Below, in pieces: positions 17,491 to 21,182 of a stretch of 23,758 nucleotides of DNA. How positions within the stretch are numbered: the first letter of the stretch is position 1; the number at the start of each line of letters is the position of its first letter. The stretch is from a virus. The DNA is taken from positions 1 to 23,758 of IMG/VR virus record IMGVR_UViG_3300037042_001945. One strand, written 5' to 3'. The position numbers were made by a program, and so were the translations under genes. The notes beneath the pieces are model-generated. The model made no database searches, had not been told where the DNA came from, and saw only the letters and a list, made by a program, of their open reading frames with translations.

Positions 17491-17520
17491 TTTAATAAAC
17501 CTTTAATGACGCGCGCGATA

Positions 17521-17590
17521 CGCATGTACGCATGTACGCATGTACGCATGTACGCAGGTACGCAGGTACGCATGTACGCATGTACGCATT
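17521..17590. repeat. Octamer tandem repeat CGCATGTA, eight copies
   Basis: Eight full units run from 17521 to 17584, the fifth and sixth having GG for TG (CGCAGGTA), followed by a partial ninth. An open frame runs through it only because the unit lacks stops. Confidence 0.9.
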
Positions 17591-17700
17591 ATGCAGGCGC
17601 GACCCCCACTGCACCCCCCACCCCCCAAATTACGCGCGGGTCCCATCCACCTCTATACATACGAGTCCGCTCCAACGATCTGCATTTCCGGCGGGACCTA

Positions 17701-17717
17701 TATAGTGATTTACTAAT
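17701..17717 (-). promoter_or_regulatory. Possible single-subunit RNA polymerase promoter, copy 1
   Basis: On the - strand the sequence is ATTAGTAAAT-CACTATA, which matches the layout of SP6 (ten bases then CACTATA) and T7 promoters. The next bases are TAGG rather than the usual G start, and no phage RNA polymerase gene is in the window. Confidence 0.25.
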
Positions 17718-17744
17718 GTACCCGCGCATTTCCGGCGGGACCTA

Positions 17745-17761
17745 TATAGTGATTTACTAAT
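17745..17761 (-). promoter_or_regulatory. Possible single-subunit RNA polymerase promoter, copy 2
   Basis: Identical to the element at 17701-17717, 44 bases away, within the second tandem-repeat copy. Confidence 0.25.
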
Positions 17762-17932: not shown

Positions 17933-18541
17933 ATGTATTATTTTGTGCATATGAATGACGACCTTAACGAGCACACGCCGTTCATAGAGCGAGTGCCTAT
18001 CACACCGCTACCTCCGCTCTCCGAGCGCGAGAGGGTGCATGTCGCCGCCATAACCGCCATTGCTGAATTCCAGCTTGGTGCAGATTTTGAAATCACGGAA
18101 GAGGACGAAGTGCTCGCACGCCAGATGGTGCAGGATGGGCGGATGCCCAATAAGTATGAGCTGAAGAAACCCGGGCTTGTGGTGCAGCTCGAGGCGCTCC
18201 TTGCCGAGTACGACTACCAGATCATCGACGAGGCTATAAAACTGCGGCGGTACGTCACCAACCGGCTGATTGCCGAAAGTGACGACAAAGACCCCAAGAT
18301 TCGTATGCGCGCCCTCGAGATGCTCGGGAAGATTACCGACGTGGGCCTGTTTACCGAGCGCAAGGAAGTGATAATCACCACTAAGACCGACGCGGACCTA
18401 GAAAAGGACCTGCGCGAGTCCCTCACGATCCTGCTGAACCCCGAAGACTTCCAAATTGAAGCCCCACCTGCTCCTGCACGTGTTATCCGCCCGGCGGACC
18501 TCGATATACGCGACGTGGAGTCTGCGTTGGATAAGTTTTGA
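17933..18541 (+). CDS. Terminase small subunit (putative)
   Basis: This is a 202-residue protein. The N-terminal 45 residues are Pro- and charge-rich; then come helices typical of DNA-recognition subunits. The region IDEAIKLRRYVTNRLIAESDDKDPKIRMRALEMLGKITDVGLFTERKEV resembles small terminase proteins I recall from marine phages. The C-terminus is Pro-rich and ends in an acidic helix (DIRDVESALDKF), perhaps the contact for the large subunit. Its position 74 bases before the large subunit fits. In the packaging motor it would bind phage DNA and feed it to the ATPase. The start is uncertain: ATG 17933 is very close to the G-run, and an ATG six codons later lacks a binding site. Confidence 0.75.
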   Translation: MYYFVHMNDDLNEHTPFIERVPITPLPPLSERERVHVAAITAIAEFQLGADFEITEEDEVLARQMVQDGRMPNKYELKKPGLVVQLEALLAEYDYQIIDEAIKLRRYVTNRLIAESDDKDPKIRMRALEMLGKITDVGLFTERKEVIITTKTDADLEKDLRESLTILLNPEDFQIEAPPAPARVIRPADLDIRDVESALDKF

Positions 18542-18586
18542 TGGATATGTTTTGGGGGGGGGCTTTGATGGATAAGTTTTGGGGGG
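18527..18586 (+). repeat. Three copies of TGGATAAGTTTTG at the terminase small subunit end
   Basis: Copies begin at 18527, 18541 and 18568; the second and third are followed by runs of nine and six G. The first encodes the last residues of the small subunit, so the gap before the large subunit seems to have grown by tandem duplication of the gene's 3' end. Confidence 0.7.
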
Positions 18587-18614
18587 TGAAGCGACGAGTT
18601 TTTAGGGGCTCGGC

Positions 18615-21182
18615 GTGGATTTAGAGGCCCTAACCCCACAGCAGATACAGTTTGTCCTTCAAAACGCCCACAAGCTGCCGAGGGAGAAGAAAGTGCGGGT
18701 GCTGGAGGTCATAAAAGAGCTAACCGAGCGGCGAGCTGCACAGTCGCGCAGGGGTTCTCTGCTTGAATTCGTGTTGCACGTCGACAAGAACTACAAAGTA
18801 GGTGCCCATCACAAGCATTTGGCGACGCTTCTCGAGGATATGGCGTACGGGCGCAAAGATCGGCTCACTGTGTCCATCGCTCCGCGCTTCGGTAAGTCGC
18901 AATTGACGTCAATTTACTTCCCCGCGTGGTTTATCGGCAACTTCCCTGACAAAAAGATCATGATGATCTCGCACACTGCCGATTTGGCGGTCGATTTTGG
19001 GCGAAAGGTGCGAAATTTGGTCGATTCCGACCCATATAAGAGTGTGTTTCCCGAAGTTTCCCTTGCTTCCGACTCTAAGTCTGCGGGTCGGTGGAGCACG
19101 AACAAGGGCGGGGAGTACTTCGCTATCGGTGTTGGAGGTGCTTTGGCTGGTCGTGGTGCCGACTTCATGTGTATCGCGGGGGATACACCCATACACACCG
19201 TGCAGGGGGTTAAGCGGGCAGATTGCGTGCAGCCGGGGGACCGTGTATGGGGGTTCGCAGGGTTTGAGGTGGTCGAAAAGTGCTTCACGTCTACGCACGA
19301 AGCACACGACACGTACTACGATGTTGGGGGCGTGCACCTCACGGGTAACCACCCTGTGTGGACGTTCGATAACGGGTGGACCGCAGCATCTAAGTTGACA
19401 ACCCACAATATATGTGACACCCTGTCCTTATGGTCGTACATCCGGCTGACTTTGAGGACTTGGTATGAGCAAACAGGCTACGCACGGCGAGAGCTACTCG
19501 CGCACCTACAACATATGGGCGCTCATGCGGCAGCGGTGCTCAAACCCGAACGCGGCGAACTACATCTGGTACGGCGGGCGCGGGATACAGTGCTGCGCGC
19601 AGTGGCGGGAGTTCGCGGTGTTCTTGCGCGAGATGGGGCACCCGCCGGGGCAGGCGTTTACGCTGGACAGGGTGGATCCCAACGGGGACTACACGCCGGA
19701 GAACTGCAGGTGGGCCGACCCCGAGACACAGGCGTGCAACCGCCGGAACGGGGTGAAGCTCACGGTGAAGGGCGAGACCCTGTCGCTGTCGCAGTGGTGC
19801 CGGAGAACGGGGCTCACGCGAGACGAGATAAATCACAGGGTGCGAGTGCTAGGCATGACTCCAGAACAGGCTATGGAGTCACCGAAGATGAGCTGGGTGC
19901 AGCGCCCCGTGCGGTGCACGAGTTTGGATGGGTTAAGCGTGCAGCGTTTCGACTCATTAGCGGATGCCGCGCGTGCTACGGGGATCGTGAAGGGTTCCTT
20001 GTGGGCTGCGCTGAAGCGGTGTTCGCCAGTCGTGTTTTCGGGCTCCTCATGGGAGTACGTCGATACAGTGTAACCCCACGAGTATGCGGGTCATCAACTA
20101 CGTTCTACAACTTCCAGACCGCTGATTCTAATACGTATTATGCGGGGGAATTGATGACCCACAATTGTATCGACGATCCCCACAATGAGCAAGATGTGCT
20201 GAACGGTAATTATGAGGTGTTCGACAGAGCGTACGACTGGTACGCGTTCGGTGCCCGTACCCGGCTGATGCCGGGAGGGCGTGTAGCCGTGGTCGCTACC
20301 CGGTGGGCCCAAAATGATCTCGTCGGGCGACTCATACAGGATATGACGCGCAACCCGGAGTCGGACCAGTGGGAGGTAGTAGAGTTTCCGGCGCTGATTG
20401 AAAGTGCAGCAGAACCTAGCGAAGACGGCGAACCTAAGCCTCCAGTCCTGAAGTCCCTGTGGCCTGACCAGTGGAGTCTGGAGTCCCTCCTGCGTACTAA
20501 GGCGTCTATGCCGCCGTTCCAGTGGAACGCGCAGTACATGCAGAACCCGACATCGGCTGAGGCTGCCATCATCAAGAAGGAGTGGTGGCAGAAGTGGGAG
20601 AAGGACGATCCACCTAAGTGCGAGTACATAATCATGTCGCTCGACGCCGCGGCAGAAAAGAATAACCGGGCGGACTACACAGCGCTGACCACGTGGGGGA
20701 TATTTACGCGGGACGGGACCGATGGGCTGCCGCAGATGAACATCATCCTGCTCAATTCACTCAAAGAGCGGTGGGAGTTCCCGACCCTGAAGCGGCGGGC
20801 CTACGAGGAATACACAGAGTGGGAGCCTGACTGGTTCGTGGTCGAGAAGAAGTCTGCGGGTACTGCGCTGTACCAAGAGATGCGGTCCGCGGGCGTGCCC
20901 GTGCAGGAATTCACGCCACACCGGGGTTCCGGCGATAAAACCGCGCGGTTGAACTCAGTTTCGGATATATTTGCGTCCGGTATGGTGTGGTATCCTGCCG
21001 GTAGGCGTTGGGCTGAGGAAGTTGTGGACGAGGTCTGCGGGTTCCCGGCTATGCCGAACGATGACTTGGTTGACTCTACTGTTATGGCGCTGATGCGGTT
21101 CCGAACGGGCGGGTTCATCCGGTTGCCCGGGGACCGATGGAACGATGAAGGGTTCACGCCGAGGCGTGCGGCGTACTACTAA
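18615..21182 (+). CDS. terL: Terminase large subunit precursor, interrupted by an intein
   Basis: This is an 855-residue precursor starting at GTG 18615, six bases after AGGGG. Walker A is IAPRFGKS (88-95). Walker B is split: GRGADFM ends at residue 185 and CIDDPHNEQD resumes at 518, so the ATPase forms only after the 332-residue intein is removed, leaving a 523-residue mature protein, a normal length for the family. The coupling motif is VVATRW. The C-terminal nuclease domain shows IIMSLDAAAEK, DWFVVEKKSAGTALYQEM and NDDLVDSTVMALMRF with the acidic metal ligands. The enzyme powers DNA translocation into the prohead and cuts concatemers. The portal gene follows after 16 bases. Confidence 0.95.
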   Translation: MDLEALTPQQIQFVLQNAHKLPREKKVRVLEVIKELTERRAAQSRRGSLLEFVLHVDKNYKVGAHHKHLATLLEDMAYGRKDRLTVSIAPRFGKSQLTSIYFPAWFIGNFPDKKIMMISHTADLAVDFGRKVRNLVDSDPYKSVFPEVSLASDSKSAGRWSTNKGGEYFAIGVGGALAGRGADFMCIAGDTPIHTVQGVKRADCVQPGDRVWGFAGFEVVEKCFTSTHEAHDTYYDVGGVHLTGNHPVWTFDNGWTAASKLTTHNICDTLSLWSYIRLTLRTWYEQTGYARRELLAHLQHMGAHAAAVLKPERGELHLVRRARDTVLRAVAGVRGVLARDGAPAGAGVYAGQGGSQRGLHAGELQVGRPRDTGVQPPERGEAHGEGRDPVAVAVVPENGAHARRDKSQGASARHDSRTGYGVTEDELGAAPRAVHEFGWVKRAAFRLISGCRACYGDREGFLVGCAEAVFASRVFGLLMGVRRYSVTPRVCGSSTTFYNFQTADSNTYYAGELMTHNCIDDPHNEQDVLNGNYEVFDRAYDWYAFGARTRLMPGGRVAVVATRWAQNDLVGRLIQDMTRNPESDQWEVVEFPALIESAAEPSEDGEPKPPVLKSLWPDQWSLESLLRTKASMPPFQWNAQYMQNPTSAEAAIIKKEWWQKWEKDDPPKCEYIIMSLDAAAEKNNRADYTALTTWGIFTRDGTDGLPQMNIILLNSLKERWEFPTLKRRAYEEYTEWEPDWFVVEKKSAGTALYQEMRSAGVPVQEFTPHRGSGDKTARLNSVSDIFASGMVWYPAGRRWAEEVVDEVCGFPAMPNDDLVDSTVMALMRFRTGGFIRLPGDRWNDEGFTPRRAAYY
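19170..20165 (+). other. Intein within terminase, with out-of-frame endonuclease gene inside
   Basis: Residues 186-517 of the precursor. The first residue is Cys186, opening block A (CIAGDTPI). Block B is LTGNHPVWT with the Thr-x-x-His pair. Block F is FYNFQTADSNTYYAGEL, and block G is MTHN followed by Cys518, giving the penultimate His516, terminal Asn517 and a Cys +1 nucleophile. This is a complete class 1 set. The N-terminal splicing part is about 98 residues and the C-terminal about 31, the size of a mini-intein. Between them the terminase frame reads about 203 Arg/Gly/Ala-rich residues that resemble no endonuclease domain, because the DNA there encodes an HNH protein in the +1 frame. Cis-splicing is inferred from the motifs. 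Confidence 0.92.
19465..20073 (+). CDS. HNH homing endonuclease, nested in +1 frame inside the terL intein
   Basis: This is a 202-residue protein. The ATG at 19465 follows GAGG by seven bases and the TAA is at 20071-20073. The N-terminal domain has the signature of phage HNH/intron-type endonucleases: YNIWALMRQRCSNPN, YGGRGIQCC, and TLDRVDPNGDYTPENCRW then QACNRR (residues about 66-94) as the metal and DNA-cutting core. A DNA-binding helix-turn-helix follows (LSLSQWCRRTGLTRDEINHR), and a NUMOD1-like module ends the protein (FDSLADAARATGIVKGSLW). Third codon positions are GC-rich in this frame, as for a real gene. It lies exactly where a domain would sit in a bifunctional intein and presumably spreads the intein by cutting intein-free terL; that role is inferred. 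Confidence 0.93.
   Translation: MSKQATHGESYSRTYNIWALMRQRCSNPNAANYIWYGGRGIQCCAQWREFAVFLREMGHPPGQAFTLDRVDPNGDYTPENCRWADPETQACNRRNGVKLTVKGETLSLSQWCRRTGLTRDEINHRVRVLGMTPEQAMESPKMSWVQRPVRCTSLDGLSVQRFDSLADAARATGIVKGSLWAALKRCSPVVFSGSSWEYVDTV

Follow-up and report, generated by a model that had tools for sequence, protein, structure and literature searches.

How can a complete nuclease gene reside within an intein without being read in the intein's own frame, and what keeps the host gene readable across it? These questions are raised by an IMG/VR virus record of 23,758 bases (this entire stretch is hereinafter called the window), in which the gene for the large terminase (terL) is interrupted at its Walker B motif by an intein and the intein encloses, in a different reading frame, a gene for an HNH endonuclease. 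The window very probably represents a mobile intein with two overlapping genes, namely, a terL frame that would be spliced at the protein level and a separately translated HNH nuclease, and the arrangement recurs in other phage inteins. A previous, sequence-only reading of the window had given the right coordinates of terL, the intein and the HNH gene, which are listed here along with the other relevant features.

18615-21182, plus strand: terL open reading frame (ORF), 855 residues, GTG start, no internal stop
18615..19169, plus strand: terL N-extein, the large terminase ATPase up to Walker B (...GRGADFM), continuous with the Terminase_6C/TIGR01630 C-terminal part
18929..20445, plus strand: diverged, apparently co-converted tract, about 240 base pairs upstream and 280 base pairs downstream of the insertion site, intein excluded
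19170..19427, plus strand: Hint-N, the N-terminal splicing part of the intein, with Cys1 in block A (CIAGDTPI) and block B LTGNHPVWT (TxxH)
19454-19458, plus strand: Shine-Dalgarno (SD) sequence GAGGA, 6 nucleotides 5' of the HNH ATG
19458..20063, plus strand: terL-frame filler, intein residues about 97-298, open, no folded domain predicted
19465-20073, plus strand: HNH endonuclease gene, 202 residues, in the +1 frame relative to terL, wholly within the intein, with its own ATG and stop
20074..20165, plus strand: Hint-C, the C-terminal splicing part of the intein, with block F TFYNFQTADSNTYYAGE and block G LMTHN, followed by Cys+1
20166..21182, plus strand: terL C-extein (CIDDPHNEQ..., RNaseH-like nuclease domain), matching Pfam PF17289 Terminase_6C (E 4.5e-9) and TIGR01630 (E 4.9e-12)

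The insert comprises terL residues 186-517 (nucleotides 19170-20165; 332 residues), with the junctions ...GRGADFM / CIAGDTPI and LMTHN / CIDDPHNEQ, such that splicing would yield a TerL of 523 residues; in the intein-free homologue L002, the GRGADFM of the N-extein is continued by GRGADFMCLDDVHNEQD. All the signature motifs of inteins are present (Cys1, LTGNH, YNFQTADSNTYY, THN with its terminal HN, and Cys at +1), and NF, NT and THN are invariant among the relatives of this intein. In the AlphaFold model, the predicted local distance difference test (pLDDT) is 77-91 for residues 1-80 and 80-92 for residues 300-332, compared to 20-50 for residues 96-298, which correspond to the DNA of the HNH gene. 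The best Foldseek matches are all inteins or intein-like domains, with the gp41-1 intein at the top (6qaz, E 2e-5), and a profile of seven relatives matches both gp41-1 (E 2e-8) and NrdJ-1; Pfam Intein_splicing and Vint match four of the seven members of the family. That the insert is a true intein, as the sequence-only reading maintained, is thus confirmed by its anatomy and by the Hint fold predicted from both ends, and we infer that it splices. A different kind of splicing could be envisaged, namely, that of a self-splicing intron that carries the HNH gene while the terL frame is open by chance, and phage group I introns indeed often carry HNH genes (PMC11878797, PMC3984707). However, an Rfam scan of the window and ten relatives recovered no intron RNA match, the Hint blocks are present and predicted to fold, and the avoidance of stop codons over more than 100 loci, described below, makes no sense for an intron, which renders this explanation extremely improbable.

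The enclosed gene bears the hallmarks of an independently translated nuclease. Its protein product matches the HNH endonuclease family PHROG 3377 (E 1.6e-49) as well as PHROG 374, is modeled with a pLDDT of 85 (93-97 in the core), and has the HNH homing endonuclease I-HmuI as its top Foldseek match (E 7e-5); its relatives are 51-56% identical and conserved over the full length. By core fold and family sequence, it is of the HNH type, and cleavage of the intein-free allele is proposed as its activity. The earlier proposal that this is a separate out-of-frame gene with its own start signals is borne out by the GAGGA, the ATG, the stop and the 202-residue product, and also by the relatives, where an SD match of at least 4 nucleotides precedes 86% of the nested nuclease starts compared to 21% of random positions.

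The layout seen in the window is not a singleton. A homology screen for relatives of the nuclease in viral contigs and phage records yielded a classified set of 318 distinct nucleases, 125 of which are nested (169 loci), including 80 HNH nucleases of the DNA polymerase A (PolA) type, 38 endonuclease-VII-like (EndoVII) nucleases and 7 HNH nucleases of the terL type; 4 of the 318 are broken, and most of the non-nested ones are free-standing or accompanied by one Hint half only. None of the 318 was found as an in-frame endonuclease domain. The nested nucleases occupy inteins of terL, PolA and SNF2-like helicases: nested HNH genes are present in the terL inteins of L013-L016 and L097-L100, in the same register as in the window, and in the PolA inteins of L070 and L084; HNH nucleases of the 'PolA type' in L183, L191 and L328 are located in SNF2-like helicases; and in L006, an EndoVII-like ORF (PHROG 2914) is concealed, in another register, within a different terL intein. 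Phage records add Hamiltonella phage APSE-1 (P45 with nested P46), Caulobacter phages and Shewanella phage SFCi1, and some polA genes contain two nested HNH genes in two inteins. The nested nuclease within an intein is, then, a recurrent architecture that involves three types of host genes and both HNH and EndoVII-like nucleases. The register of the host frame relative to the nuclease is constant within each family, +2 for the terL-HNH and the main PolA-HNH, and +1 for EndoVII and for the second PolA site.

This recurrence bears on the most mundane explanation, also raised by the sequence-only reading, that of an ordinary large intein whose in-frame HNH domain is displaced by a sequencing or assembly frameshift. 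A single contig may carry indel errors, and one terL intein (L243:1941-2740) shows what such a locus could look like: its Hint-N runs in frame into an EndoVII-like nuclease that ends with a stop, and its Hint-C lies in the frame that is open across the nuclease, be it through a frameshift, a sequencing error or a genuine fusion of the N-terminal intein half with the nuclease. However, 9 terL-HNH loci, recovered from independent metagenomes, have the same register in common, and the nested layout is found in finished phage genomes as well (APSE-1, Caulobacter phages, Phlyer and Chandler). Moreover, every nested gene is equipped with a start of its own, in most cases preceded by an SD sequence, and with its own stop, so that two compensating indels would be required every time. 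Given this recurrence, the frameshift explanation can be considered refuted, with a negligible residual probability.

Several of these genes contain more than one insertion. PolA genes with two nested HNH matches are present in L121, L135, L140, L146, L174 and L185, the second match being in the other register where checked. In L016:843-4349, a second, larger intein, apparently of the LAGLIDADG type by visual inspection, is located at Walker A (PPRHA...HNTKSEF), beside the intein with the nested HNH gene at Walker B, and the SNF2-like helicase of L328:1005-4268 harbors a second apparent intein at the DE-box (DECFPAEVQ...VHNCSKMKN).

What, then, keeps the host frame open? When synonymous codons are shuffled within the nuclease, 3.15 terL-frame stops are expected across the HNH region of the window and none is seen (P = 0.023; 20,000 synonymous shuffles, window alone), in agreement with the earlier claim that the terL frame stays open despite expected stops; for the window by itself, this is not decisive, and chance openness is decisively ruled out only when the family is considered. 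In the nested sets, there are no host-frame stops compared to 7.7 (terL-HNH), 5.7 (PolA-HNH) and 1.6 (EndoVII) expected, zeros that are conditional within each family because the nested class was defined partly by openness. Hence, the real test is the comparison with free-standing genes and with the third frame, where no such condition applies: in the third frame of the nested genes and in both frames of the free-standing relatives, the observed numbers of stops equal the expected ones. In the HNH register, a host-frame stop can arise only where AA, AG or GA follows a codon with T in the third position; such codons account for 0 of the 1390 sites in the nested genes, where C is always found instead, compared to 2279 of the 4249 in the free-standing relatives. 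The openness of the host frame across the relatives is therefore far beyond chance. Because every stop in this register can be removed by a change from NNT to NNC that leaves the nuclease unchanged, the ease of clearing it may explain why the register recurs.

Openness, however, is not conservation. The sequence-only reading surmised that both frames are under selection and suggested comparing substitution rates in the two frames; we made this comparison for pairs of PolA and EndoVII loci. Among the PolA pairs, the mismatch rates at host positions 1/2/3 are 0.19/0.13/0.39 before the nuclease and 0.20/0.13/0.38 after it, compared to 0.36/0.15/0.13 within the nuclease, where host position 1 is the nuclease wobble position; within the nuclease of the EndoVII pairs, the rates are 0.11/0.34/0.18, with host position 2 being the nuclease wobble. 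The phase of substitution thus switches at the nuclease borders, and since the peak mismatch rate in the overlap is about that of a normal wobble position, the host-frame amino acids are essentially free and only openness is maintained. The nuclease frame is selected as a protein, and the host frame over it is selected only to lack stops, so that the earlier surmise stands for the nuclease and for the open terL frame but fails for the terL frame as a protein. These data also speak to the possibility that both frames function as proteins, with the filler playing a role of its own, for example, in shaping splicing or as a DNA-binding linker. Across our sample, the filler varies little in length and is retained in every case, and a few of its residues are common to the terL inteins; nevertheless, it is predicted to be unfolded, the shared residues sit opposite conserved HNH codons, and filler-changing substitutions occur at wobble speed. 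Protein-level conservation of the filler is ruled out by the substitution phase, and a functional filler appears very unlikely.

If the nested gene is a homing nuclease, traces of mobility should be discernible at the insertion site. The L002 terL, 90% identical to that of the window, is intein-free and reads GRGADFMC-LDD across the site; terL is also unbroken there in L003-L005 and others, and likewise in 65 further terL loci. The sequence-only reading suggested an alignment of intein-free, mini-intein and nested forms at this site: a similar intein is present at the same site in L097/L098, and the scan for mini-inteins at the window's site yielded only intein-free terL. Compared to L002, the tract that flanks the insertion point is about 81% identical and the rest of terL about 95%, with 99 mismatches in 520 positions of the tract against 54 in 1052 outside it (Fisher P 3e-17; P 2e-9 for third positions alone). 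In the sub-tracts from -240 to -120 and from 0 to +120, the window is nearer to L097 than L002 is; this is not the case for the other sub-tracts. A diverged tract centered on the insertion point is the footprint that would be expected of homing with co-conversion of the flanks.

The exact insertion points vary slightly. In terL, they are one codon apart within Walker B, GRGADFM/CIDD in the window and L097 compared to GRGADL/CIIDD in L013-L016 and L099, and PolA inteins are similarly offset (GGKL/CEN and EN/CTQA). It seems that the site occupied by homologous inteins can shift over a distance of one or a few codons.

A scenario that would account for these observations involves a ribosome that reads terL straight across the 332-residue insert, after which Hint-N and Hint-C would fold together and excise the intein along with its meaningless linker of about 200 residues, to yield the 523-residue TerL. 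Internal initiation on the same mRNA, at the GAGGA-ATG of position 19465, would produce the free HNH nuclease, which may nick or cut intein-free terL near Walker B, whereupon the empty allele would acquire the intein, together with the flanking sequence, by repair copying. Besides the conditional zeros noted above, some observations weigh against this reading. The window intein, taken by itself, has no Pfam match, and for both the intein and the HNH protein, Pfam and NCBIfam gave weak matches or none, such that PHROGs, structures and PDB profiles were required. The diverged tract could stem from an unrelated recombination that happens to center on the site. Furthermore, the HNH motif is a DR-x-D...NCRW variant (LDRVD..GDYTPENCRWA) in which Arg replaces the first His of many HNH enzymes; this residue, Arg69, is invariant in the 20-member HNH alignment. 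The variant motif would fit a relic, in which the intein still splices, the HNH gene is a dead passenger and nothing but the openness of the terL frame is still under constraint; a degenerate endonuclease is a common stage in the homing cycle of inteins. Yet, the HNH frame is intact, with SD sequence, ATG and stop, the substitutions among its relatives are wobble-biased, conservation at 51-56% identity extends over the full length, and the co-conversion footprint is seen against a close intein-free allele. A relic is, accordingly, unlikely, and we favor a mobile intein with a live nuclease.

The relatives also offer a glimpse of what might become of such loci. The sequence-only reading noted that nothing is split in the window, and indeed, its terL frame is unbroken, in contrast to L168, L169 and L181, which have the two separate ORFs of a split intein or fractured gene. 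There, the polA frame ends just past Hint-N and is followed by the HNH gene and then by a short ORF (MKVYDI.NAGP...VSN/C...) consisting of Hint-C and the end of polA; in all three, the TGA of the HNH gene overlaps the start of this ORF as ATGA. We read these loci as natural split inteins with the order polA-IntN, HNH, IntC-polA (IntN and IntC being the two intein halves). In the HNH tree, the split loci fall within the nested PolA clade (support 98 for the wider and 92 for the inner clade), apparently twice, and the sister of the L168 HNH is a free-standing gene located right after the stop of an uninterrupted polA (L158:3003-3624). The terL-HNH and the HNH of the second PolA site form separate clades (92 and 100), which implies that overprinting arose at least three times among the HNH nucleases, in addition to EndoVII. 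Because the tree method does not infer a root and support is weak for many inner branches, a direction from nested to split is likely although unproven. If the host frame is broken and the C-terminal part gains a start codon at the nuclease stop, the outcome would be a split intein whose halves flank a free nuclease gene. The suggestion of the sequence-only reading that the window might be an evolutionary intermediate remains plausible; the evidence, however, fits the invasion of an intein by an endonuclease less well than a later break into a split intein.

Much of this has counterparts in known systems: mobile inteins, HNH homing nucleases, fractured genes and out-of-frame HNH insertions are all established. 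Canonical large inteins of the PI-SceI type, with an in-frame LAGLIDADG domain, likewise consist of Hint-N, an endonuclease-coding region and Hint-C and home into an essential conserved motif of a phage gene; in the window, by contrast, the nuclease is translated separately from the other frame and the in-frame middle is filler. Fractured genes, attributed to Dassa et al. in 2009, reportedly consist of intein halves that flank a separately translated nuclease gene. In such genes, the host gene and intein are in two pieces, unlike the unbroken host frame of the window; L168, L169 and L181 show this broken form at a PolA site that nested forms also use, and two split inteins, gp41-1 and NrdJ-1, are among the nearest solved relatives of the window intein. 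Phage insertions other than inteins that carry an HNH gene out of frame have been published (ShiLan, PMC11855218); they share with the window a mobile distribution and the overprinting of the HNH gene on a host frame that remains open, but lack splicing domains and a detectable ribosome-binding site, and the insertion is thought to stay in the protein, whereas the window HNH is flanked by Hint domains and preceded by the GAGGA SD sequence.

The TerL6-f intein in gp6 of the B3 mycobacteriophage Chandler splices in a reporter assay, and homing endonuclease domains are reported for TerL1-b and TerL1-c (Kelley et al. 2016, PMC5050341). We found that this 254-residue Chandler intein contains an overprinted EndoVII-like ORF of 183 codons, and an overprinted EndoVII-like ORF is likewise present in Phlyer. 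TerL6-f differs from the window intein in its terL site (C-motif), nuclease family and register; nonetheless, an intein of nested layout can splice, which by analogy supports splicing in the window. In APSE-1 (NC_000935; L093), P45 (a DNA polymerase with an intein) and the nested P46 (an HNH endonuclease) are both annotated, with the intein unmarked; the nesting resembles that in the window, but the site is in PolA and the HNH subfamily has an extra N-terminal Cys-rich part. The p45 gene varies among APSE haplotypes (PMC8579659), and the intein could partly explain this variation. In the literature accessible to us, a nuclease overprinted in an intein is not described, although Gosselin et al. 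2025 and Gorbalenya 1998, cited in PMC11855218 for overlapping frames in actinobacteriophages, lay outside our search and may hold examples; relative to that literature, the overprinting of an HNH or EndoVII gene in an intein able to splice, on such a scale and accompanied by split derivatives, appears to be new.

Chances seem about even that overprinting is a common and stable mode of HNH and EndoVII nuclease carriage in phage inteins, adopted independently at least four times by nucleases unseen in frame, and that it is ancestral to some fractured genes via the ATGA overlap. If so, mobility would extend to many phage inteins that are listed without an endonuclease, and those considered endonuclease-free or degenerate may be active; in intein screening, a host-frame middle that looks like junk may encode an intact nuclease in another frame. 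Overlapping genes with one frame constrained solely to remain open are available here in large natural sets, a clean system for studying how overprinting evolves. With a single HNH clade occurring around polA in nested, split and free-standing form, direct tests become possible of how split inteins, which are now in wide use as tools, originated.

Two minor features of the window lie upstream of terL. A short near-direct repeat (gatggataagttttggggg / gatggatatgttttggggg) is located at 18528-18590, between the upstream gene and terL, and a repetitive ORF (MYACTHVRMYAGTQVRMYACTH) at 17506-17760 derives from short, tandem-like repetition where genes are sparse, ahead of the packaging genes.

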